This document shows, piece by piece, positions 23,448-64,000 of a stretch of 64,000 nucleotides of DNA. The stretch's first letter is position 1; every line of letters starts with the position of its first letter. Made by a program: the position numbers and the translations under genes. The DNA is from Spartobacteria bacterium. GTDB lineage: Bacteria > Verrucomicrobiota > Verrucomicrobiia > Chthoniobacterales > UBA10450. Where the stretch lies: NCBI GenBank assembly GCA_003167555.1, contig PMSN01000011.1:1-64000 (forward strand). The letters run 5' to 3'. Below the pieces are notes generated by a model. The model made no database searches, was not told the DNA's origin, and saw only the letters and a program-made list of their open reading frames with translations.

Positions 23448-26400
23448 ATGCTCAAACGGAACGGAAGGGTCGCAAATCGCGACGATCAACTTAGCCTTTT
23501 TGATTTCGTTCGATCTCATGAGCCCGCCGATTCATCTGACGCAATACGGACTGATGGCCGAACGCCACTGGCGGGAATTCCGGCCAAAACTGGTGCGGGA
23601 ACTCGAGGCGAAAGGCACCTTAATGGAAGCTCTGTTCGAAGCGCAGGAGACGACGATCAACGAAATGGAAGCTCTCACACAGGAGCTCGAAACGGGACAG
23701 AAGCTGACTCCGCAGCAGGCGCACGATCAGGCTTGGGAGATGATTCGCGAGAAATACATTCTTCTCCCGCCGGAAGAGAATCTCGGCTAAACGCGCGGAA
23801 CTATTGCATCCGCGCCGATGACCGTCTCGGCGATGGTTCGCTGAAGCAAAAGTGTCGCGACAACTTTGCAGCGATAGAGGTCATCCGACGACTCGATCTT
23901 GAGAGCCGCGCGGCGACAGACGATGAGAAGCGTGTCCTCGTGAAGTATGTCGGCTGGGGTGGCATTCCGCAGGTCTTTGCATCGCCGCTCTCGACTGAAT
24001 GGAAGGCTGAAGGCGAACGCCTCAAGGTGCTCCTTACGAGTGAGGAATTCGAGGCCGCGCGGGCTTCGACTCTCAATGCGCACTACACTTCTCCGACCGT
24101 CATCTCCGCAATCTACGATGCCGTGCAGCGGATCGGATTCACAGATGGCCGGGTGCTGGAGCCAGCGCTCGGTATCGGAAACTTCTTCGGCCTGATGCCA
24201 GGCGAAATGAGTGCCCGCTCGCGACTGACCGGCGTTGAGATCGATCCGTTAACCGCCAAGATCGCGCGTCAGCTCTATCCTGATGCGGACATTCGCCCCC
24301 AAGGTTTCGAGACCGCCGCGTTCGGCGATAGCTCGTTCGATCTCGCGATCTCCAACGTGCCTTTCGGCGACTACAAACTTCACGACCCGTCGTTCAACGA
24401 GCACAATTTTCTCGTTCACGATTACTTCTTCGCGAAAACGGCCGAAAAGGTCCGGCCCGGTGGATTGCTGGCCTTAGTCACTTCCAAAGGCACACTCGAC
24501 AAGGTCAATTCAAGTTTGCGCGGGTATCTCGGGGACAAAGTCGATTTCATCGGCGCGGTTCGTTTGCCAAACACGGCATTCAAAAGAAACGCGAACACCG
24601 AAGTCACGACCGACATCGTGTTCCTGCGCAGATTGGCCGCTGGCGAAAAGCCGACCCGCCCGACCTGGCTAAATCTTGCTGAGCACGCAAATCGCGACGG
24701 CGTGCTTTTTCAGATCAACGAATACTTCGCCGCGAATCCGCACATGATGCTCGGCCACATGGCGAACGCCGGCACGATGTATCGCAGCAACGAGCCCGCA
24801 CTTGTTGCCGATGATCGCGATCTCTCGGCCGCGCTCGCCGAAGCTGTGGCCACGTTACCGCAAGGAATCTACCGGAGCGCGGAGCGAAACATCTCCGAGC
24901 CGCCCAATCGCGAGACAATCATCGCGACCGACGACGTGAAGGAAAACGCCTTCGCGTTGCACGATGGCGTCATCACGATTCGCACAGGTTCGACGCTCAC
25001 GCCGGTCGCGAACTTGCCTGACGAAACCGCGCGCAGAATTCGTGGCTTGATTAAGGTGCGTGGCGCGGTGCGCGAAGTTCTGCGCACCCAGCTCGCCGAT
25101 CGGAGGGAAGACGAGATCGTTGAAGCGCGGCGCCAACTTAATTCCTTCTACGATCATTTCGTCTCCCGGTTCGGTGCGATCAACGACAGCCCAAACCGTC
25201 GCGCCTTCCGCGGCGATCCGGACCTGCCGCTTCTCTGTTCTCTCGAGGATTACGACAACGACACGAAACGCGCGACGAAGGCCTCGATCTTTCGAGAACG
25301 CACCATTCAGCGATCGCAGCGACGGCGGGTCGCAGAATCGGCACACGATGCGCTCATCCTTTCGCTCAACGAAATCGGACGCGTTGATCTCGCGCGCATG
25401 GGGGCGCTTCTATCGCGGACGCCTGACGCGTTTCTCCCGGAATTGAAGGGTTTGATCTACCGCAATCCAGAAACCCAACACTGGGAAACTGAGGATCAAT
25501 ATCTCTCCGGTGACGTTCGCGTGAAGTTGCAGACTGCACGCGCCGCAGCTGCGAGGGACGCGACTTACGAAGAGAACGTCACCGCGCTGGAGGCCGTCCA
25601 GCCGGAAGACCTCACCGCCTCAGAAATCGATGCACGACTCGGCGCGGTGTGGATTCCGGCCGCAGACGTGGAGGGGTTCGCCAAATCGCTGCTCGGCGCC
25701 GATGGCATCACCGTTTCGCACGCAGCCGCGCTCGGCACCTGGTTTGTCCGCGGTGATTTCAACGCCCGCGGCACTGTCGCTAACACAACCGAGTGGGGAA
25801 CGGTGCGCTACTCGGCACTCGACCTGATGCAGGACGCACTGAATCTCAAAACGCCGACTGTTTACGATCGCGATCGCAAAAACGACACGGTCGTGATCAA
25901 CGCGCAGGAAACCGAAGCCGCACGCGACAGGCTGGAGAAGATCAAGGAGCGATTCAAAACGTGGATCTGGGGGGATGATGAGCGCCGCGAACGTCTCTGC
26001 CGCAAATACAACGACGAGTTCAATTCAGTGCGGCTCCGGGTTTTCAACGGCAGCCATCTGACGCTGCCTTCGAGCAGCGAGCAAATCACGCTGCACGCAC
26101 ATCAGAAGAATGCGGTTTGGCGCATTGTGCAGAGCGACAACACGCTGCTGGCACACGTCGTTGGCGCCGGGAAGACCTACACGATGGTCGCGGCCGGCAT
26201 CGAACTGAAACGACTCGGGCTCGCGACGAAGCCAATGTTCGTCGTGCCGAATCACATGCTGGCGCAGTTCTCATCCGAGCTGCTCACGCTCTATCCGACT
26301 GCGAACATTCTTGTCGCCGGCAAAGATGATTTCGAAGCGTCGCGGCGCGCTAGGTTGTTCAGCCGAATCGCGACCGGGAACTGGGACGCAGTGATCGTGA

Positions 26401-28604
26401 CTCATGCGAGCTTCGAGAAGATTCCCGTATCGCTGAAGACGCGCCGAGATTTCATTGGGCGCCAGATCGACGAGATTGAAACAGCAATCCGCGAAGAGCG
26501 GGCCGACCGCGGAACCCGGCTTGTCAAAGAGTTGGAGCGCGTGAAGAAGCGCCTCACCGTGAAACTCGAAGCGCTCTCCGCCGAGCAGAAAAAAGACAAT
26601 ACGCTCACGTTCGAAGAACTTGGAATCGATCGGCTCTTCATCGACGAAGCGCACAAATTCAAGAATCTGTTCTACGTCACCAAAATGACGCGCGTTGCGG
26701 GACTGCCACAGACTGCATCGGAACGCGCGTTCGATCTTTTCCTGAAGGTCCAGCACATCCAGGAGAAGAACGGCGCTGGCGTCGTGTTCGCGACCGGCAC
26801 GCCAATCTCGAACACAATGGCTGAGATGTTCACCATGCAGCGTTATCTGCAGATGAACACCCTGCGGCGTAATTCGCTTCAGCATTTCGATTCATGGGCG
26901 GGAACTTTCGGCGAGGCAGTTACGTCCATGGAACTGAGCCCGGACGGGAGTGGATATCGCCTGCAAAGCAGGTTCGCGCGTTTCGTAAACGTGCCCGAGC
27001 TGATGCAGCAATTCCGCCAGGTCGCGGATGTGCAAACCGCGGAGATGCTGAAGTTGCCCGTGCCGAAACTCGATCAGGGACGGCCAATCACGGTCAGCGC
27101 GCCGAGCAGCCCGGAGCTGAAACGCTTTGTTGATCAACTCGTCAAACGCACAGAAAAGATCAAGAATGGGAGAGTCGATCCGCGTGACGACAACATGCTG
27201 AAGATCACAACCGAAGGGCGCAAAGCCGCGCTTGATATGCGGCTCGTGCTTCCGCGCGTCCGGGATAATCCTGATTCGAAAACGAACAACGCCGTTGAGA
27301 AAATCCACCAAGTCTGGCTCGACTCCGCTCCAACCAAAGGAGCCCAACTCGTTTTTTGCGACCTCTCCACTCCGCACCCGGGCACTCGATTGTTTTCGGT
27401 TTATGACGATGTCCGCGCGAAGTTGATCGAGCGCGGTATCCCCGCAGGCGAGATCGGATTCATGCAAGATGCGAATGACGACGCCTCGAAGGCAATGCTC
27501 TTCAGATCAGTACGAGAAGGCAAAGTTCGCATCCTGCTCGGCAGCACGCTGAAGATGGGCGAAGGCACCAATGTCCAGACACGGCTCGTCGCACTGCATC
27601 ATCTCGATGCGCCGTGGCGACCTGCCGACATCGAACAGCGCGAAGGCCGGATCATTCGTCAGGGAAACCAAAACGAATACGTGAAGATTTTCCGCTACGT
27701 CACCGAGGGCAGCTTCGACGCCTACATGTGGCAAACGCTGGAAACGAAGTGCCGCTTCATTGCGCAAGTGATGACGGGCGACGCAACCGTGCGCCGCGCG
27801 GAAGACGTGGACTCCGCCGCGCTCACCTACGCCGAGGTTAAAGCAATCGCCTCAGGCAACCCGCTTGTGATCGAGAAAGCGACGATAGACGCAGAAGTCA
27901 TGCGGCTCACGCGGCTGAAAAGGCAGCACGCGGAGAATCTTTATCAGATGCGCTACCGCATTAAACGATTGGGCGATACCGCCGAAATCTTGGAGCGTGA
28001 GATAGCAAACATTCGCGAGGACCTGCGCACGCGGACGAGCACACGCGGCGACAATTTCGTCATGATGGTGAGAAACGACACACTCACTGATCGCGTCAAA
28101 GCCGGTCGCGCGCTCGTTTTTCTTGCCGCCGCCGTAAAACCCTTCGAATCCACCAAGCCAGTCGGCACCATCGGCGGATTTCCGATTTGCATCGAGCGGT
28201 TCGACGAGCGCGCAACGCTTCTCGTCCACGGCAAACACAGCTACCGCGCCAATGTTAGTGAGAGTCCGGCCGGCACGATCGCCTCTCTTGAGCACGCGCT
28301 GGAAAGTTTCGAAGATCGCCTGCGCGAACGCGAAACCGATCTCGCGCAATCCAGCCGTCAGAGTGCCGCATTGACAAGACAGCTCGACCAGCCGTTCGAG
28401 CACGAAGAGAAACTCGCGGTGGCTACGAAACGCCAGCACGAAATCATCGCTGCGCTCGATATCACGAAAAACCAAGCTTCGCCAAACGTTGATGACTCGA
28501 TTGGCGAATTGGCGGCTCAATCACAGGGTGAATGCACGAATGTTGTTTGCGAGAAGGCTTCGCTCAGGTCCCGGCAGCGATCAGTCGTTGCAAAATTGAC
28601 GTGA
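23448..28604 (+). CDS. Giant DNA methylase-SF2 helicase fusion of mobile elements
   Basis: A 1718-residue protein typical of plasmids and integrative elements. Residues ~1-118 are low-complexity; conserved sequence begins at NYCIRADDRLGDGSLKQKCRDNF. The N6-adenine methylase domain shows motif I (VLEPALGIGNFFG, ~237-248) and the motif IV variant NVPFGDY (~303-309). The helicase shows a Walker A-like VGAGKTYT (~905-912), DEAH in LFIDEAHKFKN (~1064), GTPISNTMAEMF, and QREGRIIRQGNQN (~1398-1410). A coiled-coil tail follows. It may protect or remodel incoming DNA. The stretch coding for residues 18-114 also encodes the TnpV-like protein in another frame. No in-frame ATG exists after that overlap and before the conserved part, so some overlap is unavoidable unless a non-ATG start is used. 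Confidence 0.85.
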   Translation: MLKRNGRVANRDDQLSLFDFVRSHEPADSSDAIRTDGRTPLAGIPAKTGAGTRGERHLNGSSVRSAGDDDQRNGSSHTGARNGTEADSAAGARSGLGDDSREIHSSPAGRESRLNARNYCIRADDRLGDGSLKQKCRDNFAAIEVIRRLDLESRAATDDEKRVLVKYVGWGGIPQVFASPLSTEWKAEGERLKVLLTSEEFEAARASTLNAHYTSPTVISAIYDAVQRIGFTDGRVLEPALGIGNFFGLMPGEMSARSRLTGVEIDPLTAKIARQLYPDADIRPQGFETAAFGDSSFDLAISNVPFGDYKLHDPSFNEHNFLVHDYFFAKTAEKVRPGGLLALVTSKGTLDKVNSSLRGYLGDKVDFIGAVRLPNTAFKRNANTEVTTDIVFLRRLAAGEKPTRPTWLNLAEHANRDGVLFQINEYFAANPHMMLGHMANAGTMYRSNEPALVADDRDLSAALAEAVATLPQGIYRSAERNISEPPNRETIIATDDVKENAFALHDGVITIRTGSTLTPVANLPDETARRIRGLIKVRGAVREVLRTQLADRREDEIVEARRQLNSFYDHFVSRFGAINDSPNRRAFRGDPDLPLLCSLEDYDNDTKRATKASIFRERTIQRSQRRRVAESAHDALILSLNEIGRVDLARMGALLSRTPDAFLPELKGLIYRNPETQHWETEDQYLSGDVRVKLQTARAAAARDATYEENVTALEAVQPEDLTASEIDARLGAVWIPAADVEGFAKSLLGADGITVSHAAALGTWFVRGDFNARGTVANTTEWGTVRYSALDLMQDALNLKTPTVYDRDRKNDTVVINAQETEAARDRLEKIKERFKTWIWGDDERRERLCRKYNDEFNSVRLRVFNGSHLTLPSSSEQITLHAHQKNAVWRIVQSDNTLLAHVVGAGKTYTMVAAGIELKRLGLATKPMFVVPNHMLAQFSSELLTLYPTANILVAGKDDFEASRRARLFSRIATGNWDAVIVTHASFEKIPVSLKTRRDFIGRQIDEIETAIREERADRGTRLVKELERVKKRLTVKLEALSAEQKKDNTLTFEELGIDRLFIDEAHKFKNLFYVTKMTRVAGLPQTASERAFDLFLKVQHIQEKNGAGVVFATGTPISNTMAEMFTMQRYLQMNTLRRNSLQHFDSWAGTFGEAVTSMELSPDGSGYRLQSRFARFVNVPELMQQFRQVADVQTAEMLKLPVPKLDQGRPITVSAPSSPELKRFVDQLVKRTEKIKNGRVDPRDDNMLKITTEGRKAALDMRLVLPRVRDNPDSKTNNAVEKIHQVWLDSAPTKGAQLVFCDLSTPHPGTRLFSVYDDVRAKLIERGIPAGEIGFMQDANDDASKAMLFRSVREGKVRILLGSTLKMGEGTNVQTRLVALHHLDAPWRPADIEQREGRIIRQGNQNEYVKIFRYVTEGSFDAYMWQTLETKCRFIAQVMTGDATVRRAEDVDSAALTYAEVKAIASGNPLVIEKATIDAEVMRLTRLKRQHAENLYQMRYRIKRLGDTAEILEREIANIREDLRTRTSTRGDNFVMMVRNDTLTDRVKAGRALVFLAAAVKPFESTKPVGTIGGFPICIERFDERATLLVHGKHSYRANVSESPAGTIASLEHALESFEDRLRERETDLAQSSRQSAALTRQLDQPFEHEEKLAVATKRQHEIIAALDITKNQASPNVDDSIGELAAQSQGECTNVVCEKASLRSRQRSVVAKLT
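23500..23790 (+). CDS. TnpV-like small protein nested in the methylase-helicase gene
   Basis: 96 residues: LTQYGLMAERHWREFRPKLV, then ELEAKGTLMEALFEAQETT, then LTPQQAHDQAWEMIREKY. This amphipathic helical sequence matches, from memory, small TnpV-type proteins encoded on mobile elements just ahead of large helicase genes. It reads in plus-1 relative to the giant gene and lies wholly inside its 5' end. The overlapping stretch of the giant protein is low-complexity, whereas this frame looks like a folded protein, so this is probably the frame under selection. Function is unknown. Confidence 0.65.
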   Translation: MISFDLMSPPIHLTQYGLMAERHWREFRPKLVRELEAKGTLMEALFEAQETTINEMEALTQELETGQKLTPQQAHDQAWEMIREKYILLPPEENLG

Positions 28605-43844: not shown

Positions 43845-46800
43845 ATGGCTACCGCGTACAATTGGAGTGCTATTACTGACGGCGACGTATTTCAGTCGCT
43901 CGTAAGCACATTGGTTTTGTTCGAGGAAGCGACCGCGCGCACATTCATTCGATCTGGCAAAGACGGTGCTCAAGACGCCCGGACGGCTGACGGGAAACAA
44001 GTTTGGCAAGCAAAGCACCATCGCTCGCCGACGATTAGCAAGGCGATAGCAGATGCCTTGGAGGAGCTGGAGAAGATCAAAGAGTACCGCAAGTCATCCA
44101 ATTCCAATTATGAGCTTTGGAAAAACGTGACCGAATGGACGTTGGTTACGAATCTCGAAATGAATGCGGCCTCCCAACTCAGGTGGGAGAACGAGGTGCT
44201 GCCTGAGTTCAAGAAAGAAGGCATTGGCGCTAACCTTTGGGCAAAGGAGAAACTCGAAGCCCTTCTGACAAAATTTCCGCACGTCGCGGCCGCGTATTTC
44301 GAGGGTCAAAATCGATGCTTCTTGTCGCTGGCTGAGGCTTTCAACCAGGCGAAAAGCGATCGTATTGGCGCGGCTGGGCTCAGGGCGAGCCTCGAGGGGA
44401 GACAATCTGAACGCGGGAGTATTGAGGCTTTCCTCGGGGGCACGAAGAAATTGATTTGTGTTCACGGTCCCGGTGGGATCGGGAAGTCGCGTCTTCTTTT
44501 AGGAGTTGGAGAGATTGCGAATAGCAAAGGCTTCGAGGTCGTTTGGGGTCAAGAAGCCACGCTTTCATCGAGCAGCGATTGGTTTTCGGCAATCACATCG
44601 GAACGCCGCACACTGTTACTTCTGGATGAGCCCAAAGACCCACGCCTTCTGGACATAATCAGTGAACAACTTTCCGCCGGCGGAATGAAAACGTGGAAGG
44701 TCCTCGTTTCAGTAAGGTCGCCCAAAGACCCAGTATTGAGAGCGGTGAACGAGATGTCCGTGGATTTAAGGGAGACGCCAATAGAGCTTGCGCCGTTGTC
44801 GAAGGCCGAAGCAGAAACGACCGCGAGACAGTTGATCGAGAACGGCCCTTTGGCTTCGCTACCCAAAGAGAAAAAGGACCGAGCAAGTGCGGCGTTAGCG
44901 GCGGCCGGTGACCGCTTTCCCGTTTGGATCGTTATGGCGGTGTCCGTCCTGGAGAAAGACAGGACGCTAGCTCAGCTTCCAAACAATTCTGCAGGGCTGG
45001 CAGCAAAGTACGTCCAGGAAGTAGTCGAGTTTTCTCCTCCAGAACTTGCAGACCAGAAACAAATTAACACGCTGATTCGTTGGCTAGCGGCCTATGGCGA
45101 GATTAGCAGCGAAGACACGAATGTTCTCGCCTTTCTCGCTCAGGAGACCGCTCTTTCTACCGAGGCCGCTGTTCACGAGTGTTTGAATTCCCTTGTTCAG
45201 CGCAAGTTTGTAGTTCGACGAGGCGTCGGCGGACGCCTCTACTCCATTCGCCCGGATGTAGTCCGTGAGTTCGTAGTTCGAGATTGGTTAACCCAACAAG
45301 CAGACGGAAAGTTTGAAGCGACTCCAGCAGCGCGGCGCTTGATTGATCTTCTCTTTCCTAGCGGGGGGCAAAGGACGATTCCGAACGGTCCGCAACTTCT
45401 CAAGAGCATTGCTGCTTTAGAGTTTTCAGAGCGTTTACAAGCTCACGAGATTGATCTGTTAGGCCCGATATTTGGTCGGCTAACCCTGAGTGTTACCGAG
45501 GGTACGGTGCTGGATCAGCAAAACGCGATGGGATATCTGCGACACATAGGTTTCGCGAGAGTCTCGGAAAGTCTAGCCGTCGTCGCCCTCATCAGGAAAA
45601 CGCCGCGCGATCCGATCGAAGTTGCAAATCCCTTGTTTGGAAAGACGGAGGCCACTCACGACAAGGTCTTGGCGGATTTGCCCTGGCTGATCTTCGAAAT
45701 CGCGCATTACGCTTCCACAAGAGATGAGCGATTAACCATCCTCCGAGAACAGGTCGATCTGTTCGATCAGGAATTCGGTAACAAGGAGCGGCATTGGAAT
45801 GATGGTAAACGCGCTAGAGATCTCATTTCTCGTACAATTCGCGGCGAGGTAAATTTTCGAAGCAATTTCTGGGAAGACGGCTTCGCGCTGGCGCTTGAGC
45901 TTATCGAACGCCTCAAGAGCAACAGAGACGCTACTGATCGGCAAGTCGCACTGCTGGATGTTGTTTGTGATCCATTCTTGACGCTGGAGCGAGAGAGAAC
46001 GCGGTTCGAGAGAACAAAATTCGTCGTACAGCGTTGGTTGGTCCTCGTTAGGCCGAACGACAAACGCGATCGGCTACGCAACGAGCTCCGAAACTTACTC
46101 TCGGATTCAGCAACCTCTCAGCGAGTCCGGCTAGCGGCTTGGAAGTTACTCGCCGATACACACAGCGATGCAAATCGTGCTGTGATCGGAGGGGCAAAGG
46201 ACGACAAAACTAAAGATTACGTCGAGACCGTACGAGCGGACCTTGGGGAGAGTTTGCGGTGGACGCTGGAGTTCATCAAGCAGCACAAATTAAACATATC
46301 CGAATTGAAAGCGGCGCGGCAAATGTGGGAATGGCACCACCGTTTCGAATCCGATTCGACTCTCAAAGCCCTTGCTGACGCTTGCGAAGAAGTTTACCGA
46401 GCCAATCCATTGGCAGCCGCTTTCCATGTTCTGTTTAGTCACGAAGACTATAAAGGAGCTGAGGCGAGAGCGGCCAGATTGGGACAGGAGCTCGGCACGA
46501 CTGGTAGTGAACGAGACATCGCTGAATTTCTTTTAAACGCAGAGGAGTTTGGCTCGATTGACTCTAACTGGCACATCATCGCTTCGATTGGGACGGAGAT
46601 TGGGAAATGCTGGGACAAGAATTCTGAAGTTGAGAAATTCACGAAAGCCGTCGTCGCTCAACACCCGGACACTGTTCAGTTTAAATTCGCAACCGCGATG
46701 CTGGCAGCAAAGCTGCGCGACCTGCGGATCGCCAATAAAGACGACGAACTACGAACATTTCTGACTGAATGGCTCGCGATGCCTTCCACCTCAGCACATC

Positions 46801-47885
46801 GGGGCGAATTGCTGTTCGCGTTGTATTGGAGGCCACATCCACTTTTATCCGGAATCCTTCGTGGGCCTGATCTCGAAACTTTGTTATCCGGGCTTGGACT
46901 TTCGGCCAAGCCGGCTCTGGCTACGAACATTCCAGCGCCAAATAAACTCCGACTCATAGCGGGAGTTCACCACGTCAACCCAACTCTCATTCGAGAGGTT
47001 GCCGATAAAATCTGGAATGATTTGCCGCCGACTGAAAAAGCGTCCGCTTTGGACGCGCTGATTGATCAGATGACGTTCTTGGATGCTTTCAAATCGGATC
47101 ACCCCGAATTGGCGCTCGGCGCGGCGCAATATGACTGGTTTTTAAGCCTTCTCCCGTCAGTTCCTGACATGGAAGGCCTGAGGGACCACCAAGCCTGGGA
47201 GCTATCGCAACTGATGATGAGATTCGGGAAGAAGTCGGTGCACTGGCTCATAGACTTCCTTGAAAAGCGTCTTACAGCGACGCCAGCGCAACCGGACGCT
47301 GATCCCGAATTTAAGCTCGTACCTCTCGATCGTAGTCTTCTTCAATATGTTAAATCTGTCGATGCTGCTGATGCCGCATCGCCCGAGGTAATTAAGGCGA
47401 TCAACTCGTTGCTAGCCTACAATTCGCGGTCAGATACCCTTGGTTACGTTTTGCCAGAATATGCTGCAGCCGTCGATCCGAGCGGCTATCTTGTTCCGGA
47501 CGCTGTTGTTACACGTCTGCAAGGATTAACAAAACCGTCCAAACAAGACGTCTGGCTTTGGTCTCGATTTGCGGGTCACTTTGCATTCAATTCGGAGCCA
47601 TGGCGAAAGATTGCCATAGCTGCTATTGAGGTTTCGAATCAACTATCCGCTAGGGATCAGATTTCGATTTACGTTTCGTTATTGGAGCAAGGATTCAAAA
47701 GCTCGAGCTTCGCCGCGGATGAAATGGATCCCCAATTTGCTGCCGAATTGCAGCGCCGACGAGACGAGCGAGCCGGTGAAGCTGATTCCAGGTTGATTCC
47801 GTTTCGCGATTGGGCGTTGCGCGTTGCCCAGTCCGAATATGAAAGGGCGCTGGCGGAATTCCGAGAGGAGTCCGAAGATGAGTGA
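43845..47885 (+). CDS. PD-(D/E)XK nuclease-STAND NTPase, candidate anti-phage sensor-effector
   Basis: 1346 residues. The N-terminal ~60 residues hold a Mrr/PD-(D/E)XK-like nuclease signature: RSGKDGAQDAR (D40, D44) and VWQAKH (Q55-x-K57). The STAND-type NTPase follows: P-loop GPGGIGKS (208-215), a Walker B-like LLLLDE (257-262), then an arginine-containing VLVSVRSP. From about residue 480 to the end the sequence is long, helical and repeat-like, as in the sensor arms of Avs and other STAND defence proteins. In such proteins the C-terminal arm recognises a phage protein, the NTPase oligomerises and the nuclease is switched on. The composition looks more AT-rich than the neighbouring transfer genes, consistent with acquired cargo. 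It overlaps the next gene by eight bases. Confidence 0.75.
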   Translation: MATAYNWSAITDGDVFQSLVSTLVLFEEATARTFIRSGKDGAQDARTADGKQVWQAKHHRSPTISKAIADALEELEKIKEYRKSSNSNYELWKNVTEWTLVTNLEMNAASQLRWENEVLPEFKKEGIGANLWAKEKLEALLTKFPHVAAAYFEGQNRCFLSLAEAFNQAKSDRIGAAGLRASLEGRQSERGSIEAFLGGTKKLICVHGPGGIGKSRLLLGVGEIANSKGFEVVWGQEATLSSSSDWFSAITSERRTLLLLDEPKDPRLLDIISEQLSAGGMKTWKVLVSVRSPKDPVLRAVNEMSVDLRETPIELAPLSKAEAETTARQLIENGPLASLPKEKKDRASAALAAAGDRFPVWIVMAVSVLEKDRTLAQLPNNSAGLAAKYVQEVVEFSPPELADQKQINTLIRWLAAYGEISSEDTNVLAFLAQETALSTEAAVHECLNSLVQRKFVVRRGVGGRLYSIRPDVVREFVVRDWLTQQADGKFEATPAARRLIDLLFPSGGQRTIPNGPQLLKSIAALEFSERLQAHEIDLLGPIFGRLTLSVTEGTVLDQQNAMGYLRHIGFARVSESLAVVALIRKTPRDPIEVANPLFGKTEATHDKVLADLPWLIFEIAHYASTRDERLTILREQVDLFDQEFGNKERHWNDGKRARDLISRTIRGEVNFRSNFWEDGFALALELIERLKSNRDATDRQVALLDVVCDPFLTLERERTRFERTKFVVQRWLVLVRPNDKRDRLRNELRNLLSDSATSQRVRLAAWKLLADTHSDANRAVIGGAKDDKTKDYVETVRADLGESLRWTLEFIKQHKLNISELKAARQMWEWHHRFESDSTLKALADACEEVYRANPLAAAFHVLFSHEDYKGAEARAARLGQELGTTGSERDIAEFLLNAEEFGSIDSNWHIIASIGTEIGKCWDKNSEVEKFTKAVVAQHPDTVQFKFATAMLAAKLRDLRIANKDDELRTFLTEWLAMPSTSAHRGELLFALYWRPHPLLSGILRGPDLETLLSGLGLSAKPALATNIPAPNKLRLIAGVHHVNPTLIREVADKIWNDLPPTEKASALDALIDQMTFLDAFKSDHPELALGAAQYDWFLSLLPSVPDMEGLRDHQAWELSQLMMRFGKKSVHWLIDFLEKRLTATPAQPDADPEFKLVPLDRSLLQYVKSVDAADAASPEVIKAINSLLAYNSRSDTLGYVLPEYAAAVDPSGYLVPDAVVTRLQGLTKPSKQDVWLWSRFAGHFAFNSEPWRKIAIAAIEVSNQLSARDQISIYVSLLEQGFKSSSFAADEMDPQFAAELQRRRDERAGEADSRLIPFRDWALRVAQSEYERALAEFREESEDE

Positions 47886-56264: not shown

Positions 56265-57674
56265 TCAGCCAGGCACATCGGTTGGAGCAAGAATTCCGTT
56301 TTTCAAAAACCAACGAAGCAGTGTAAGAGGCCGTTCGGTTATTCCAGTTCGAATCCATGAACGGCAGAGTTCACCCGCCGTTTGCGCTTGGGTAGTCCCC
56401 CTCAGGAGGGCTGCGACCGCAACGTTGCCGAGGTGGGAAACCGGGCCATCCAAACTGGGGTGTTCGAGAGCCATTTGTAAGCAAATGCGGTCACCGATAA
56501 GGCAAGGGAGATCTCGGAGGCTGGCATCTGTAGACAAACGCAGCAGCGTCGTTACATCGACAGAACCCGTCGGCGCGGGGCGGAGGGCCGGGTTGGTATT
56601 GCGGAAGGCGCGTGCCATCCAGAACGGCTCGTGCCGGAATCGCTTTGGCCCCGCATAAAACTCCGCCGTTGCCCTGCTATGCCTTGCGGCGATCGCTTGA
56701 CACTGGTCGCGATAAAACATCTCGGCCACCGGCGCGCTGGATACGTCCGAAAGGATAGTGTGAACGACTACGGCGCCCTGGCACCCCAATTTTAGCGCTA
56801 CCTGAATACCCTGGGCGGAAATCGGTTCCAGAGCGACCGCCGAATCTCCAACAAGCATCCAGTCGCTCCCAATCACTTTGTTTGCAAGGACGGCTGATGC
56901 GTCGCATGCTCTGACCTTGTCTATTTGCGAACCGTTGAGGCAATTGCCGAACACGGCTGCCTCGGACAGGAAGGCCACATAGATGTTTTCGATGCTTAGT
57001 TGACCGCTTCGCCTCCGGAGCAGCGGGTCCATAAAGGCGACCGCGTAACAGCTCCCGTCTGCAAGTGGTGCCCACCAGACCCATCCTTCGCGCAAAGCCT
57101 CAACGGAGATCCTAGTCCGAGCTGGGTATGGAAGTTTCCAGCGCGAGTGCAGTGCTAAAAGAGGCGGCATTATCCGCTTGCGTCCCTGAAAGAGCACGGG
57201 TTTCCTCCCAGTGGCAACAATGAGAAAGCCGACATGAACTTCTTCGAAGATGGGTGTGGCGATCCGTACCAACCACCCGCCTTCGGCTCGTCGGGTCGGG
57301 ACGTCGCCGACCCGCGTGGCAATGACCTGAACGCCTGCCCCCCGGGCGGCGTCAACTAGGCAGGCATCCATCTTGGATCGGTCCACGAGGTGACCGGAAG
57401 GGCCGGAAACAGAATACTTGAGAGGCCCGGGCTCTTCCCAACGCACATCGGGGGGATCACACTCGGTGGCAAAGGTGTCTAGCGCGTCGTTGAGATTAAG
57501 CAGATCAAGTAGGGGATGGATTCCCGGCGAAATTGACTCGGGGAGAGCACGGCGACGCGGCGATCCATCACCGATTAGGACCACGTCGCGTCCTAGGCGG
57601 GCGAGGCGGCAGGCAATGGAGGCTCCGGCTGGCCCGGCGCCAAGAACAGCGACCTCCGCAATAATTGGCTTCAC
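56265..57674 (-). CDS. FAD-dependent oxidoreductase, LodB/QhpG-like maturation flavoprotein
   Basis: 469 residues. N-terminal FAD-binding fold VAVLGAGPAGASIACRLARLGRDVVLIGDG (GxGxxG at about 11-16) and a later flavin segment SDWMLVGDSAVALEPISAQGIQVALKLG, the GD motif of tryptophan-halogenase/LodB-type monooxygenases. LodB, GoxB and QhpG are flavoproteins that hydroxylate a protein tryptophan during quinone cofactor formation. The start is a GTG in a GTGA overlap with the radical SAM gene. It is the last gene of the operon. The role in maturing the LodA-like protein follows from context. Confidence 0.75.
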   Translation of the reverse strand: MKPIIAEVAVLGAGPAGASIACRLARLGRDVVLIGDGSPRRRALPESISPGIHPLLDLLNLNDALDTFATECDPPDVRWEEPGPLKYSVSGPSGHLVDRSKMDACLVDAARGAGVQVIATRVGDVPTRRAEGGWLVRIATPIFEEVHVGFLIVATGRKPVLFQGRKRIMPPLLALHSRWKLPYPARTRISVEALREGWVWWAPLADGSCYAVAFMDPLLRRRSGQLSIENIYVAFLSEAAVFGNCLNGSQIDKVRACDASAVLANKVIGSDWMLVGDSAVALEPISAQGIQVALKLGCQGAVVVHTILSDVSSAPVAEMFYRDQCQAIAARHSRATAEFYAGPKRFRHEPFWMARAFRNTNPALRPAPTGSVDVTTLLRLSTDASLRDLPCLIGDRICLQMALEHPSLDGPVSHLGNVAVAALLRGTTQAQTAGELCRSWIRTGITERPLTLLRWFLKNGILAPTDVPG

Positions 57675-59044
57675 GCCTGCTCTACCGCAAAGTAGCTGGG
57701 CACCGAGGCGCGGAGATGAACGTAGGCTTGCATGCAGTAATGGAGCCAGCCACGGATATAGCCGCAGGCCGGCCGCCCACGATGAATCACCTCATGATGA
57801 CATCCACCACCGCACAGATAGCGTGCCCAACATTGGCGGCATGGCTCTTGGCGATGCACATGGCGTTGCGCCAGCCATGCATTCCGGCGCTCGCTGTCAA
57901 TCGCGCCAGCTACACTGCCCATGGATGCGCGGGAATCATCGACGAAACGGTGGCATGCGTATAGGTCGCCATCGGCCGACACTCCCAGATAGCCGGCCCC
58001 CGCCCCACATGGATACGGCCGATGCGTCCCGGCATGCAGTTCACGCAGCGCGGTCACCATGTTGAGGAACGGATAACGAACGCCCGCGATTAGGCGCGCT
58101 TCGAATCGCTTCCCGCAGTCAATCATCCGTGCCAGCATGACCTCAAGCGATGCTTCATCCATCTCGCCCGACTTGGTGGGTGAGCTTAACATCGGTGAAA
58201 ACCCCACGCTATGGAATCCGAGAGTGATCAATCCCTCCAAGGTCCCGACAAGATCGAGGTTCGATGGCGTTACCGTGACCCGGGCGGAGACTTGCATCCG
58301 CCTCTGCTGCGCCAGAAGCGGCTCGACCCGCGCGATGATCTTGCCGAAGCTGGGCGCACCGTTCTTAAAGGGCCGCTGGCGATCATGGGCGTCGCCGATG
58401 CCATCGAGACTGATGGTGACCGCGAAACCATGCCGCTCGAAGAAATCGCCGTCCTCGGGTGTAAGCAACGTGCCATTTGTTGTGATAGAAAACCGAACGT
58501 CAACGCCCGCGGCGGTCGCCAATTGGGTTGCATATTCAGTCGCGGCGCGAAGGCCCGTCCGATTCGCCAGCGGCTCGCCGCCAAGGAAGGCGAGGTTGAC
58601 GCGGGTTCCAGCTTCGGCGTCTCGAAGCAGCAGATCCACTGCGCGCAACGCCATCTCGGCGGACATGGCCTTCGCGCCGCCGCCAAACTCACCTTGCTGC
58701 GCATAACAATAGGTGCAGCCAAGATTGCATTTCTGCGCGATTGCCAACGAAAGCGATCGTAGTGGAGGAGACACTATCGGCCGGTCATCTATAAGCGGTG
58801 ACAGAGTGATGCCAAACTGAATGAGGAGACGGTCCACTGCTTCCCGGTCATCCGCTACTAATGCCTGTCGCAAAGTCTCGGCCGCTTCAGCCGCGAGGCC
58901 ATAAATTTGGCTGCCGTTCACAATAAACGCGTGAGGTCCGGCCGATGTATCCACCATATGGACATCCGGATGCCTGGGCGCTGACGGGCCGTGCGTGGCA
59001 AATCTCGAAACGGAGCGCAAGATTTGGTCAGTCGAGATTAGCAT
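57671..59044 (-). CDS. Radical SAM/SPASM enzyme, putative quinoprotein maturase
   Basis: 457 residues. The radical SAM cluster motif is CNLGCTYC (C106, C110, C113), preceded by SLAIAQKCN. The C-terminal SPASM domain has CGAGAGYLGVSADGDLYACHRF and CRQCWARYLCGGGCHHE, enough cysteines for auxiliary iron-sulfur clusters. Relatives such as QhpD install thioether cross-links in quinohemoprotein amine dehydrogenase; others act on ribosomal peptides. The N-terminal ~95 residues may bind the substrate protein. The ATG at 59044, 25 bases after the LodA-like stop, is the sensible start; the frame upstream overlaps that gene antiparallel to its known content. Confidence 0.85.
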   Translation of the reverse strand: MLISTDQILRSVSRFATHGPSAPRHPDVHMVDTSAGPHAFIVNGSQIYGLAAEAAETLRQALVADDREAVDRLLIQFGITLSPLIDDRPIVSPPLRSLSLAIAQKCNLGCTYCYAQQGEFGGGAKAMSAEMALRAVDLLLRDAEAGTRVNLAFLGGEPLANRTGLRAATEYATQLATAAGVDVRFSITTNGTLLTPEDGDFFERHGFAVTISLDGIGDAHDRQRPFKNGAPSFGKIIARVEPLLAQQRRMQVSARVTVTPSNLDLVGTLEGLITLGFHSVGFSPMLSSPTKSGEMDEASLEVMLARMIDCGKRFEARLIAGVRYPFLNMVTALRELHAGTHRPYPCGAGAGYLGVSADGDLYACHRFVDDSRASMGSVAGAIDSERRNAWLAQRHVHRQEPCRQCWARYLCGGGCHHEVIHRGRPACGYIRGWLHYCMQAYVHLRASVPSYFAVEQA

Positions 59045-59069: not shown

Positions 59070-61190
59070 CTACTCCGAGTCGCGCCCGCCGATCTCGAAT
59101 TTGAGGAGATGCTCCCAGTTTTGGAACAACTGCTCGTACGTGACCAGACGCTGATCCACGAAATCGTCCACGATGTAAACCTTGGCTGTTGACGCAGTCC
59201 TACCCCGCTGCAGCCAATTGTGTCCGGCGCTCGTGCCGTCAACACGCGGCTCAACATTCACGTAGTCGGGACGGCTCGCTGCCCAATAGTAGCAGGAGCA
59301 TTCCCGATAGTCATTTTGCCATGGAGAACAGAGGCTCTGCGTCAGCTCGCCAGGCTCCAGTAGCTCGCGCTTGATGACGCCGGTGCCGGCCTCAAAGAAC
59401 GGTCGCACCTTGAGGGCTATCTTGGTCTGTGGTCCACCGCCCTCCGGAACGAAGACACACTTGGCGGATTTGCCCTCCATCTGCAGCGCGTCCGCCAAAG
59501 CGTTGGACCACTCTAGATTGGTCTTGCCGGCCATGGGATCGTTTGCGGCCGCGTTTTGATTTGACGGCAACGGGACAACTGGGCCGCCGGGACGGGAAGG
59601 CCCTTGGAGGACGCCGATGACCCTCACCCCGTTTACCGAAATGAGCCGCTGCCCAATCAGAGCCCGAAGCTTCGCCGGAGCATTCGCATCGACGCCCACC
59701 ACGAAGTTGTCTGCTTCGTGCAGGACGATCCCGACGAATACCCGCCGCCAGACATTACGAAAATCCATCTCGAGGCCCGGAAAGGCGTTCGAAATGGCCG
59801 AGGAGGGATGAGCGACAGGAGGATTTCCCTGCGCATGATAAAGGATGGCACTCAGATTGGTGGGTGTCAGTGTGCCAGGATTGGGATTGCCGGCAGGGGC
59901 CTCGGGTGCAATCGCCACGGCAGCTGCGTCAATTGTGGAAGCTTGGCGGCGCGTGAGCGCGAGGTGGGACCCATCGGCGCCGCGCATCATTCCCGGCATT
60001 TTCCGGCGACCATCATCGGAGAGATCGCCGACCTCTGCGTAGCGTCGGAGGACGGTAGAAAACCAGGCCATGGTCCCACTGTTCAATGCTAGCAGAACAC
60101 TTTCGTGCCGCGCTCGGATCGCGAGGGCGTCCACAACGGAGGGATCAAAAATCGGCTCCGCAGCGCGTCCTGCCCCGGTGTCTTGATTGGCCATGCTATT
60201 AACAGACGGCGAGTTGAGCGCGGTGGTATTCATCAACCGGACTGTTTCCAAGGCGCGGCGCACGATGGACCCAACCTCGGCCATGGGAACCGGCCCTGAC
60301 ACGGAAGGCCCCAGTTCGACTTGCTCCAGTTCATCTGTGACGGTCCGTATCGGCAGACCGTCCGGGGCAAAGTTCGGCGGTCCAAACGTAATCCTCGCCA
60401 GAGCCGTCAACGTCTTACCCGGCAAGATGACTTGGACCTGCACCACTCCATCGCATTCATCGTCGAGGTAGCCGCGGCTGACATTATTCACGCTCGCGAA
60501 AATTCCTCCCGGTTCCGTAGATGGTGGGGCGTTGTTCGCGCCTTCCCTGAACCGTGCCCACTTGCCACGAGTCGCGTCGTACACATCGTCGGCAATGTTA
60601 GGATCGCCCGCGGTTGGCCCGTAAACCCTACCTGCCGCCGGCGTCAATCGTAATCGGATCTGTGGAAACGCGGCGGTAGGCTTGAGGTACCGAGCCGAGC
60701 CCAGTGGGAGCGTCTTTCCGGGCTTGAAGTTGGGGCAGTCACCGACCAAGGCATTGACATTGTGGTTACTGAAGGGGGCAACGCTCGCGGTGATCCTATC
60801 GTTGGCATCGCCGGTGCGACGAAAGGCCTTGATGTTTCCCACCTGGACGCTCCAGGAGACAGCGGTCTCATCCGCGCCGAGACTCTGCAAAGCCTGCAGG
60901 GTCAGCGGCGTCAAGGTTTTGGCGCCGGCGAGCAGCATCCATACCTCCAGGAATGGACATACTGGCTTGATGTTGCCCTGCACATCGCGAAAGGAGACCG
61001 AAGCCGGCGGGTTTGCGCTGACGACCGCTCCGGTAATCGGATCCACGACCAGTGTTGCGGCAGGAACGAGGGACCGGTAACCGACGGGATTAGCGATCTC
61101 CAGGGTATAGTTTTCGAGCGGTGTCGCGGACGAACCGAGTCGGCCGATTGCGAGCGGAGGCAGGATACGAATTTCCACGATACCGGGCAT
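59070..61190 (-). CDS. LodA-like oxidase with predicted cysteine tryptophylquinone
   Basis: 706 residues. The start PGIVEIRILPPLAIGRLGSS is the LodA/GoxA N-terminal signature; the end PWQNDYRECSCYYWAASRPDYVNVEPR matches the C-terminal PWQ.D...C...W....RPD region. LodA oxidises the epsilon-amino group of L-lysine and GoxA oxidises glycine, each making H2O2 with a cofactor built from its own Cys and Trp. Candidate Cys and Trp residues are present, but the pair cannot be assigned without alignment. Unusually, about residues 480-590 hold a PDZ-like stretch (LRALIGQRLISVNGVRVIGVLQG). The ATG at 61190 has AAGGAG nine bases upstream; an alternative at 61211 would overlap the previous stop (ATGA). 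Confidence 0.7.
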   Translation of the reverse strand: MPGIVEIRILPPLAIGRLGSSATPLENYTLEIANPVGYRSLVPAATLVVDPITGAVVSANPPASVSFRDVQGNIKPVCPFLEVWMLLAGAKTLTPLTLQALQSLGADETAVSWSVQVGNIKAFRRTGDANDRITASVAPFSNHNVNALVGDCPNFKPGKTLPLGSARYLKPTAAFPQIRLRLTPAAGRVYGPTAGDPNIADDVYDATRGKWARFREGANNAPPSTEPGGIFASVNNVSRGYLDDECDGVVQVQVILPGKTLTALARITFGPPNFAPDGLPIRTVTDELEQVELGPSVSGPVPMAEVGSIVRRALETVRLMNTTALNSPSVNSMANQDTGAGRAAEPIFDPSVVDALAIRARHESVLLALNSGTMAWFSTVLRRYAEVGDLSDDGRRKMPGMMRGADGSHLALTRRQASTIDAAAVAIAPEAPAGNPNPGTLTPTNLSAILYHAQGNPPVAHPSSAISNAFPGLEMDFRNVWRRVFVGIVLHEADNFVVGVDANAPAKLRALIGQRLISVNGVRVIGVLQGPSRPGGPVVPLPSNQNAAANDPMAGKTNLEWSNALADALQMEGKSAKCVFVPEGGGPQTKIALKVRPFFEAGTGVIKRELLEPGELTQSLCSPWQNDYRECSCYYWAASRPDYVNVEPRVDGTSAGHNWLQRGRTASTAKVYIVDDFVDQRLVTYEQLFQNWEHLLKFEIGGRDSE

Positions 61191-61207
61191 GGTTGTTTTC
61201 TCCTTTG

Positions 61208-62602
61208 TCATTGGGATGCGACCCGATTGGCGATCTGCACGGCCTCGGCATCGGCTGCGGACATCCCTTTGAGAAAGTCGGAGCCGCGAGTTGCTGGAAG
61301 GGTGGCAAGGGAGGCGACGATCATCTCCGCCGATTGGAGCATGGAACTCTGTAGCCGCCAACGGTCGGCTTCCAACGTAGGTAATGAAAGGGACGAGGGC
61401 AGCTCAAAGGGCGGGCCGGCGACATGCGTGTCGCCCGCAGCCCCCGTCGCAGGCAGTGTAACCAAGATGCTCGCAATAGACCGAAGATGATACATCTCGG
61501 AAAAGGTCCAGCTTATCAGCAGACCGCGAGGCGTGCTATTAAGCCCAGTCGGGGCCGGGGACTCGAGCTCAAGCGCGTGCCGCAGGGTCATCAAAAGCCG
61601 CCGGTAGCGCGCATTCAAGAGCTGCGCCCAGAGGCGCGCCTCCGGCTGGGTAATCTGGCCGGGATTGTCCATGCTGATCACCGAGGATCGCACGTTCGGA
61701 TCCTCAATAATCCGATAGGCGGGCTGCCAGGAACCGCCATCTGGAATCTGACGGTAAATGCTCACGAAGCGCTGGAAATGAGACGCTGGGTCCGCTGCGG
61801 CCGCGGCAGTCACGGGGCCTTCCCCTTGTTCCGCTATCTGGCCTAAAGCGGCGAGCGCTTGGGAACGTGTCCCGACGGGCAGGATCAAAATGTCGTGCTT
61901 CCCCAGGCCCCACTCATCGAACCTAGCCTGCTGCGAGACGGAGCTGCTGGAGAAATCAGTCGTCGGGAGCGACTGGACCACCGCCCTCAACTGTTCATAG
62001 AGCTTGCCTACCCGGTTCACGGGCTGACCTGTATCATCCTCATCCGCTCGCTGTGTAATGTCGGCGATCTCAGCCGGCGTAACGCCAGCAATACCTTCCG
62101 CCGCCGCAATCGGGGGCATTTCGGCGAAGGCATATTTGGCGGCGGAATTTTTGCTGAGGGACTCAAGGCGAAAGGCGAACGGATAGAAGCCGGTGTTAAC
62201 CGGAAACTCGTCTCGGGCGAGGCTCAGGGGCGCGCCCAAGGATCGGAGGAGATTCTGAATTGTAACCAGATGTCCCATCTCCTCTCGGGCGACTGTCGCA
62301 ATCGCGTCACGCCACGCTCGGACCAAGGCCCCCTTGTCGTCGGGAAATTGGCTCGGGTCCCGAAGCGAATAAGCGGCGAACAGGTACTGCACCATTAGCG
62401 CGTGCTCCACCTCTGCCGCGATGTTCAGTAGAAACACTGCTTCATCGTGAGGAGCGAGAGGCGGATCATGCACAGGCACCGCGTCGCCTGCGGCTGTCTG
62501 CGCGGTGAGCATCTTATCAGTCGAAGGCGATCGGAACAGAAGATGTCTGCTTCTCCTAGACTCCCTCATGGGCAAGCGCGTTATCTGAGATGGGGATGCC
62601 AC
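61208..62602 (-). CDS. Ferritin-like protein of the iminophenyl-pyruvate dimer synthase family
   Basis: 464 residues. First metal motif IAAEVEHALMVQYLFAAYS (E64/E66, H67), second AREEMGHLVTIQNLLRSLG (E107, E108, H111), then the long helical C-terminal part with YHLRSIASILVTLP. In known members the fold couples indole- or phenyl-pyruvate imines; such imines can arise from amino acid oxidases. The start is a GTG with AAAGGAG seven bases upstream, 12 bases after the peroxidase stop. Its product and that of the LodA-like gene could act in sequence: amino acid oxidation to an imine, then dimerisation. That is an inference. Confidence 0.75.
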   Translation of the reverse strand: MASPSQITRLPMRESRRSRHLLFRSPSTDKMLTAQTAAGDAVPVHDPPLAPHDEAVFLLNIAAEVEHALMVQYLFAAYSLRDPSQFPDDKGALVRAWRDAIATVAREEMGHLVTIQNLLRSLGAPLSLARDEFPVNTGFYPFAFRLESLSKNSAAKYAFAEMPPIAAAEGIAGVTPAEIADITQRADEDDTGQPVNRVGKLYEQLRAVVQSLPTTDFSSSSVSQQARFDEWGLGKHDILILPVGTRSQALAALGQIAEQGEGPVTAAAAADPASHFQRFVSIYRQIPDGGSWQPAYRIIEDPNVRSSVISMDNPGQITQPEARLWAQLLNARYRRLLMTLRHALELESPAPTGLNSTPRGLLISWTFSEMYHLRSIASILVTLPATGAAGDTHVAGPPFELPSSLSLPTLEADRWRLQSSMLQSAEMIVASLATLPATRGSDFLKGMSAADAEAVQIANRVASQ

Positions 62603-62614
62603 GACGTCGCTCCT

Positions 62615-64000
62615 TTATCCGGCGAGGGCTGCCTTGAGAATATCCGCTAGTCCGAAGGACAGCACGGCCCCCTGCATCGGCTTCCAATCCGGGTTATTTA
62701 CGATCGAATCGGGATCCTGCTTCAGCAGCCCAAGGAAGACCTCTCCAACGATCCGGCCTCCCACGTCTCCCAGACATGCGCGGCCCTTCAGGTAGAAGTT
62801 TCTTCGGGACTCGGCCAGAATGTAAACCCACAACGGGCACTTTCCCACGAACGATTGGCTGATATCTACGATAGTTCGCGCTTTGGCGCCGTCGTCTCCG
62901 TCCGTTTCTGCCGATCCGTCGTTGGCCGCGTGGAGGATGATCTTGTCGTCCGGTAGTGGAACCACCCCCATGCTTACGGCAACGTCCTGTCCGGTAGGCA
63001 GCAGAAGCTTCTGGCCCCGTAGGAGGTTTCTGAAACCAAGGTTGAACTTATGCGGGTCGGCGGTCGCCTCGCTACCCGCCACAGACTTTGGAAGGTGGCC
63101 AAGCGGCAAGACGACTGAGGTATCGATCTTATAGGCGCGCTGCACACGGTCGGTATCCGTCTCGGGGGTGCTTCGGAGCCCCAGATCGATAAACCGCTGC
63201 CAGTCTATCCCCCAGCTCTTGGGGAAATCGCCAAATGCATTCAGTCCATTGGTCGGGTTTTGAGCATCGAAGATAAGCAGCGGCGGCGTGAACTCATTCA
63301 CCCGGTAGCCCGGACGAATCATGGAGTGGCCCAATCGGTACGCGGCTACGGAAAACTCCACGGGCATGATCGGCGTCGAAAATTTATATATCTTCAGGTG
63401 CGGAGGATTAGGTTTGAACGACTTCGTCGCGTCAGCGATAGCAGGTGAGATGGCATTGAGCACATCACCATGGACGATCTTCGGGAGAAAATCGTGAACC
63501 GCCGCCCATTGATAATGCCTCCTGACCTCGAGATTAACCTCACTGAAGGACATTCCCGGATTGACGTCCACCAGGTGATTGTGGAAACGCTGCATCATGC
63601 CCTGCAGTTGAGAAACGATGACGTTCTCGTCGTTCCTCGGGTCCCCAATGATCGCCCGCCGGGTGCCGTCAAAGGCCGTCGCTGATCGCGCTAGGTCTCG
63701 TGCCTTCGGATTACGCTCTATCAGGAAGAGTTTGTCCCCTAGAAGGAACTTGATGCCATCGTACAGGTATGGCTGGTCGCCGGGTCCGCGACCATACAGA
63801 TTGTCCAGATCGAACCGCGGTGTGCGAAAATCCGTGATCCCGTCCGGGTCGCTCTGTTGCTCCTGGAACGAGGATGGATCGAAAGTCAGATCGTGATCAA
63901 TGAACTGTCCGAAATAGGTGTAGGCGGAGCCAAAATCGCTCTCTTCAGGGTCAGCGCCGTCCTTCGGCCCATCGGCCCCTGTCATAGCATCCCCAAGCTT
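62615..64000 (-). CDS. Animal-type haem peroxidase, 5' end beyond the window
   Basis: At least 461 residues, still open at the window edge. SAYTYFGQFIDHDLTFD carries the distal-His region of the peroxidase-cyclooxygenase superfamily; TPRFDLDNLYGRGP is the calcium-binding loop region, and EVRRHYQWAAVHDFLPKIV leads to the proximal region with YRLGHSMIRPGYRVN holding the proximal His. An in-frame ATG lies at 63985, but the codons upstream (KLGDAM) look conserved, so the true start is outside. It would use H2O2 to oxidise halides or organic compounds, matching an H2O2-producing LodA-like partner. First visible gene of the operon. Confidence 0.85.
   Translation of the reverse strand, partial: KLGDAMTGADGPKDGADPEESDFGSAYTYFGQFIDHDLTFDPSSFQEQQSDPDGITDFRTPRFDLDNLYGRGPGDQPYLYDGIKFLLGDKLFLIERNPKARDLARSATAFDGTRRAIIGDPRNDENVIVSQLQGMMQRFHNHLVDVNPGMSFSEVNLEVRRHYQWAAVHDFLPKIVHGDVLNAISPAIADATKSFKPNPPHLKIYKFSTPIMPVEFSVAAYRLGHSMIRPGYRVNEFTPPLLIFDAQNPTNGLNAFGDFPKSWGIDWQRFIDLGLRSTPETDTDRVQRAYKIDTSVVLPLGHLPKSVAGSEATADPHKFNLGFRNLLRGQKLLLPTGQDVAVSMGVVPLPDDKIILHAANDGSAETDGDDGAKARTIVDISQSFVGKCPLWVYILAESRRNFYLKGRACLGDVGGRIVGEVFLGLLKQDPDSIVNNPDWKPMQGAVLSFGLADILKAALAG

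Follow-up and report, generated by a model that had tools for sequence, protein, structure and literature searches.

How is a LodA-like quinoprotein matured when its gene stands next to those of both a radical SAM enzyme and a flavoprotein? Cysteine tryptophylquinone (CTQ) enzymes have so far shown two maturation routes, each bound to its own scaffold: that of LodA (L-lysine 6-oxidase) and GoxA (glycine oxidase), both H2O2-forming amino-acid oxidases, and that of quinohemoprotein amine dehydrogenase (QHNDH) with its 9-kDa subunit QhpC. LodA and GoxA require only a flavoprotein (PMC7876137; PMC4417212), and the flavoproteins concerned, LodB and GoxB, act on a mono-hydroxylated Trp (PMC7876137). 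In the other route, the radical SAM enzyme QhpD makes three thioethers in QhpC, after which QhpG dihydroxylates the unmodified Trp (PMC7876137). Two of these thioethers join Cys27 to Asp33 and Cys41 to Asp49 (PMC8172795), while the CTQ is formed from Cys37 and Trp43 (PMC8172795, PMC7876137). A sequence-only reading of the locus described here had reported a LodA-like protein beside both kinds of maturase, and had suggested from this an extra thioether cross-link and a new maturation logic.

Gene layout

Five genes, haem-peroxidase-like, ferritin-like, LodA-like, radical SAM/SPASM and flavoprotein, follow one another head to tail on the minus strand at the end of the window, the whole stretch of 64,000 nucleotides that was analysed. 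The LodA-like gene (59070..61211), with its start placed at the ATG at 61211, overlaps the stop of the ferritin-like gene (61208..62602) as ATGA and encodes a protein of 713 amino acids in which the N and C parts are fused. Its stop lies 25 nt from the start, at 59044, of the gene for a QhpD-like radical SAM/SPASM maturase of 457 amino acids (57671..59044), and this gene in turn overlaps by 4 nt that of a QhpG-like flavoprotein of 469 amino acids, a predicted peptidyl-tryptophan hydroxylase with a GTG start (56265..57674). The neighbourhood of LodA-like protein, radical SAM enzyme and flavoprotein, together with its coordinates, was thus read correctly from the letters alone, and is confirmed by profiles, by fold and by linkage in relatives. 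The ferritin-like gene, assigned by a Pfam match to PF12902, recurs in relatives as a core partner gene.

Directly upstream of the ferritin-like gene, an animal-haem-peroxidase-like gene (62615..64000, minus strand) runs off the window. It is absent from the other family loci, and for this lack of conservation we rejected it as a part of the system. Its role is possibly H2O2 disposal. In the distant clade, Dyp-type peroxidase genes do occur near the loci from Streptomyces (L016) and Rhizobium (L182). Elsewhere the window encodes another ferritin-like (PF12902) protein (20710-23052), larger at 780 amino acids, as well as two very long open reading frames (23448-28604, 1718 aa; 43845-47885, 1346 aa) with no Pfam match at E 1e-8. 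A search of the source genome found no second LodA-like gene.

Fold and family of the LodA-like protein

The LodA-like protein falls slightly below the Pfam cut-offs for both LodA_C (22.2 bits, cut-off 25) and LodA_N (18.5 bits, cut-off 26.3), and fails the family models for LodA (18.7 bits, cut-off 600) and GoxA (20.4 bits, cut-off 750). Since a direct phmmer search of PDB sequences gave no match, its identity as a LodA-fold protein was settled by fold comparison. An AlphaFold2 model built from 30 fused relatives (mean pLDDT 80.9, pTM 0.87) matches LodA (2ymw; Z 21.3 over 424 residues) and GoxA (6byw; Z 21.1 over 446 residues), and both matches stand far above all other folds. The QHNDH gamma subunit was not listed in the fold search, a chain so small that its absence carries no weight. 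The protein is thus outside the named LodA and GoxA equivalogs and inside the wider superfamily; it shares the fold, the CTQ Cys and Trp in PWQxD-x3-C ... W-x3-RP and the neighbouring flavoprotein gene with LodA and GoxA, but only ~18-20% identity, below all family cut-offs.

Unlike LodA and GoxA, the family also has two extra Cys, a PDZ insertion, and N and C parts that are often separate genes. PDZ domains match residues ~491-604 (59400-59741, minus strand; Z up to 8.2 in the fold search), so that a PDZ-like domain sits inside the LodA fold, ahead of the CTQ loop. In two-gene relatives the break in the oxidase falls shortly before this region. The maturases might dock on this insertion.

Distribution and gene linkage

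Searches in the source's own phylum and order turned up hardly any relatives, and the early impression of a private family lasted until plasmid and genome-wide scans overturned it. Plasmid relatives found by tblastn belong to Bradyrhizobium, Rhizobium, Mesorhizobium, Novosphingobium, Mycetohabitans and Embleya. Scanning a single genome from each species with CTQ-loop patterns gave 198 relatives. The 80 that were retained extend over at least seven phyla, including Verrucomicrobiota, Acidobacteriota, Myxococcota, Planctomycetota, Pseudomonadota, Actinomycetota and Bacteroidota, with homologues ~45% identical in many of them. In annotated plasmid relatives the oxidase appears as two 'hypothetical proteins' (~470 and ~290 aa), followed by a 'radical SAM protein' and then by a 'tryptophan 7-halogenase' or 'FAD-dependent monooxygenase', and the oxidase halves carry only the 'hypothetical protein' label in most annotated records examined. 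A survey published in 2015 collected LodA-like genes by BLASTP at 1e-10 and nowhere uses the word 'radical' (PMC4417212); the radical-SAM-linked family probably lay outside its reach.

Genes for the N part, the radical SAM enzyme and the flavoprotein occur together in 80 of 90 related loci, most of the remaining 10 stopping at a contig edge, and 72 of those 80 also have the ferritin-like gene. The oxidase is a single gene in about half of the related loci and two genes in the rest. Of the 70 loci in which a single strand was found to carry all four genes, 68 have them in the order ferritin, C part, radical SAM, flavoprotein. Because both the gene set and its order recur in this way, the pairing of LodA-like protein, radical SAM enzyme and flavoprotein is not by chance. 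Four loci (L028, L034, L046, L078) have no adjacent downstream radical SAM gene, yet their genomes encode one (61-62% identical). The loci of a distant clade (Nostoc, Streptomyces, Rhizobium, Microvirga) encode the N part, the radical SAM enzyme and a C part that carries a ferritin-like domain in the same chain; each of the three that were scanned also encodes a protein whose FAD/Rossmann match is weak to moderate.

Many of these loci were found through CTQ-loop patterns, so that selection bias is possible in the conservation of the loop. As a check, a search with the N domain alone recovered the same family, and both extra Cys were found in every such locus where the C part is present. One of the loci recovered with the N domain, from Azospirillum, is cut by an IS3 element. 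In the cluster on plasmid p5 of Azospirillum argentinense (L018), an IS3-family transposase truncates the radical SAM gene, and the C part is missing.

The ferritin-like domain is fused to the N part of the oxidase in three loci (L017, L032, L034) and to the CTQ-bearing C part in distant-clade relatives such as L182; the ferritin-like protein probably associates physically with the oxidase. Its invariant residues are E66, E108xxH111, E161, E261 and H275, and as a putative partner of the oxidase it is likely to bind metal.

The two maturases

The radical SAM enzyme scores best against the QhpD model TIGR03906 (321 bits), ahead of PapB (266), nif11 (247) and SCIFF (221), while remaining below the QhpD equivalog cut-off of 453 bits. 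Its CxxxCxYC motif and seven SPASM Cys are kept in 99-100% of 86 aligned rows. A first tree with very long outgroups left QhpD, the SCIFF-like enzymes and the family unresolved; with those outgroups removed, the family, the distant clade and four QhpD proteins form one group in the maximum-likelihood tree (98/93), apart from the SCIFF-like rows and from a separate PapB branch (100/99). No QhpD above the TIGR03906 cut-off emerged from 229 genomes of one class; plasmids of Paracoccus, Leisingera and Pseudomonas supplied the QhpD references. With the outgroups sampled, the family is the sister clade of QhpD. The SPASM phylogeny proposed by the sequence-only reading as a check therefore groups the enzyme with QhpD and not with unrelated peptide maturases.

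The flavoprotein is of the QhpG type and not of the LodB type. It passes the QhpG equivalog NF049967 (287.3 bits against a cut-off of 240), fails the LodB/GoxB models (~102 bits, cut-off 400), and has QhpG (7CTQ; E 1e-32) as its closest solved structure. In a quick tree it falls on the QhpG side of a split from 19 LodB-like proteins (SH-aLRT 86), the family forming its own clade (95) beside QhpG. Equivalents of QhpG residues E42, W74 and W183, in numbering matched to PMC7876137, are kept, while R47 and R70 are not, according to the alignment with 7CTQ. The LodA-like protein is therefore indeed paired with both kinds of maturase, one QhpD-type and one QhpG-type, but not simply with a LodB to which a further enzyme has been added.

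The CTQ loop

In the source protein the CTQ loop (59265..59330, minus strand) reads C628-SPWQN-D634-YRE-C638-S-C640-YY-W643-AASRP-D649, and across the family its motif is C-[SA]-P-W-x2-D-[YF]-x2-C-x-C-x-Y-W-x5-D. All 99 family sequences, which fall into 32 clusters at 60% identity, keep the framework C628-x5-D634-x3-C638-x-C640-x2-W643-x5-D649 and with it the equivalents of Cys27, Cys41 and Asp49 of QhpC. For comparison we assembled 20 canonical LodA-like proteins, 18 of them taken from genomes or records in which the radical-SAM-linked family occurs too. C638 and W643 align with the CTQ Cys and Trp of all 20, but canonical loops (e.g., MALPWQADFxxC...WWPAQRP) lack the other two Cys: equivalents of Cys27 and Cys41 are found in none of the 20, and that of Asp49 in 6. 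A LodB-like neighbour accompanies 19 of the canonical genes, the contig ending at the other, and none of the 20 loci has a radical SAM gene of its own. That the two extra Cys and the second acceptor Asp are kept throughout the family with this maturase pair is established as directly as the gene set, its linkage in relatives, the fold prediction, and the families and trees. In Bradyrhizobium macuxiense and Mycetohabitans, no more than ~10 kb separates a canonical LodA with LodB from the radical SAM-type system (L147; plasmid NZ_CP132742.1, L014, L143), L147 being one contig that holds both, and such arrangements offer a natural paired comparison.

The spacings C-x5-D, D-x3-C and W-x5-D are identical in the family and in QhpC, and since D-x3-C occurs in LodA and QhpC alike, Cys638 is identified as the predicted CTQ cysteine. 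Other parts of the loop differ: from C37 to C41 the family takes a step of 2 residues where QhpC takes 4, and its second predicted bridge spans 9 residues from Cys to Asp, against 8 in QhpC. The profile match between the family and QhpC covers a short motif only (hhalign E 0.0037, probability 9%), and the family has no counterpart of the third QhpC bridge (Cys7-Glu16). Residues 639-649 of the invariant loop are the worst-predicted part of the AlphaFold2 model (pLDDT <50), which may hint, weakly, at a loop held by covalent bonds that the prediction does not model.

Discussion

Taken with the biochemistry of QhpD and QhpG, these observations suggest that the operon probably makes a LodA-fold CTQ amine or amino-acid oxidase whose loop is stapled and then oxidised as in QhpC. 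The QhpD-like enzyme would act on the LodA-like protein itself, or on the separate C-terminal subunit in relatives, and would join Cys to Asp side chains by two thioethers, Cys628-Asp634 and Cys640-Asp649 (713-aa numbering). The QhpG-like flavoprotein would then hydroxylate Trp643, twice if it acts like QhpG, and in the last step, common to all CTQ enzymes, a bond between Cys638 and the oxidised Trp643 would complete the cofactor. Instead of the one extra thioether proposed earlier, the sequence thus supports two, at the positions of Cys27 and Cys41 of QhpC, with the chemistry as a prediction. Against this proposal stand the differences from QhpC in the loop, the lack of a leader peptide, QhpE and QhpF in the operon, and the radical SAM score below the QhpD cut-off; moreover, neither LodA nor GoxA needs such bridges to fold or to mature.

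It seems unlikely to us that the radical SAM enzyme, with the LodA-like protein as its substrate, forms just a single bridge or joins other carbons or residues. Cys640 could be joined to Tyr or to the CTQ Trp, or the roles of Cys638 and Cys640 could be swapped, and the CxC spacing unlike that of QhpC, the aromatic residues beside Trp643 and the varied thioethers formed by related SPASM enzymes all lend something to such variants; yet both acceptor Asp are invariant at QhpC-like spacing, and D-x3-C marks Cys638 for the CTQ. The invariant Asp partners also speak against a disulfide or a metal site. Two invariant extra Cys could in principle pair in this way, leaving the radical SAM enzyme with a different role such as repair, but that enzyme is kin to QhpD with complete radical SAM and SPASM Cys sets, and we regard this explanation as very improbable.

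The radical SAM enzyme might instead modify the ferritin-like protein or some small peptide that escaped notice, with the flavoprotein alone maturing the LodA-like protein in the manner of LodA and LodB. The ferritin-like gene is a core member of the loci, and a flavoprotein alone does suffice for LodA and GoxA (PMC7876137; PMC4417212). However, the two extra Cys occur only together with the radical SAM gene, no Cys is conserved at >=90% in the alignment of ferritin-like relatives, and the flavoprotein is of the QhpG type. A separate precursor peptide between the C part and the radical SAM gene was considered and rejected, because that junction is <=159 bp across loci and leaves no room for its gene. 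We therefore hold modification of another product to be improbable, and prefer stapling of the LodA-like protein itself.

Compared with QHNDH, the family shares a QhpD-like radical SAM enzyme, a QhpG-like flavoprotein, and a CTQ loop with the equivalents of Cys27, Asp33, Cys37, Cys41, Trp43 and Asp49, but the loop is carried by a LodA-fold protein and not by a 9-kDa subunit. The operon is without a haem alpha subunit, a beta subunit, a QhpC gamma subunit, a leader peptide, a leader peptidase/subtilase (QhpE) and an exporter (QhpF); a QhpC-like gene was not found in the source genome, though the control likewise matched nowhere. To speak of a new maturation logic would therefore overstate the case: it is a QHNDH-like logic on a LodA-type scaffold that dispenses with the haem subunit, QhpE and QhpF. 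In its operon the family differs from LodA and GoxA by the type of its flavoprotein and by the added radical SAM and ferritin-like genes. PapB, a ranthipeptide maturase that forms Cys-Asp side-chain thioethers (PMC8172795), and the SCIFF maturases are related SPASM enzymes, but they act on small peptides and occupy separate branches of the tree. Fungal LodA-like group V shares the neighbourhood of a LodA-like and a ferritin-like PF12902 gene, but has a LodB-like partner, and the survey that describes it does not mention a radical SAM gene (PMC4417212).

A literature search on radical SAM enzymes with LodA, ferritin-like proteins or tryptophylquinone found no description of such a system; it covered openly available journal papers and so may have passed over one. 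We judge that the scaffold and the maturase types are known and that their combination is new. Somewhat more tentatively than for the operon itself, we lean towards a third class of CTQ enzyme, LodA-fold, often two-subunit and ferritin-linked, whose large chain receives two Cys-Asp thioethers from a radical SAM enzyme before a QhpG-type flavoprotein makes the quinone; such a class would bridge LodA/GoxA and QHNDH and would suggest a common ancestor of both CTQ loops and QhpC.

With the QHNDH route placed on a LodA scaffold, the purpose of the thioethers would become directly addressable, since close relatives that share the fold lack them. The exact residues for such tests are named here, and a sequence link is offered between the two CTQ lineages. 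If the proposal is true, QhpD-type thioether formation extends from a 9-kDa subunit and short peptides to an enzyme of 270 to 700 residues. The family is widespread in bacteria and for the most part unannotated, and its members are predicted to be quinone enzymes.
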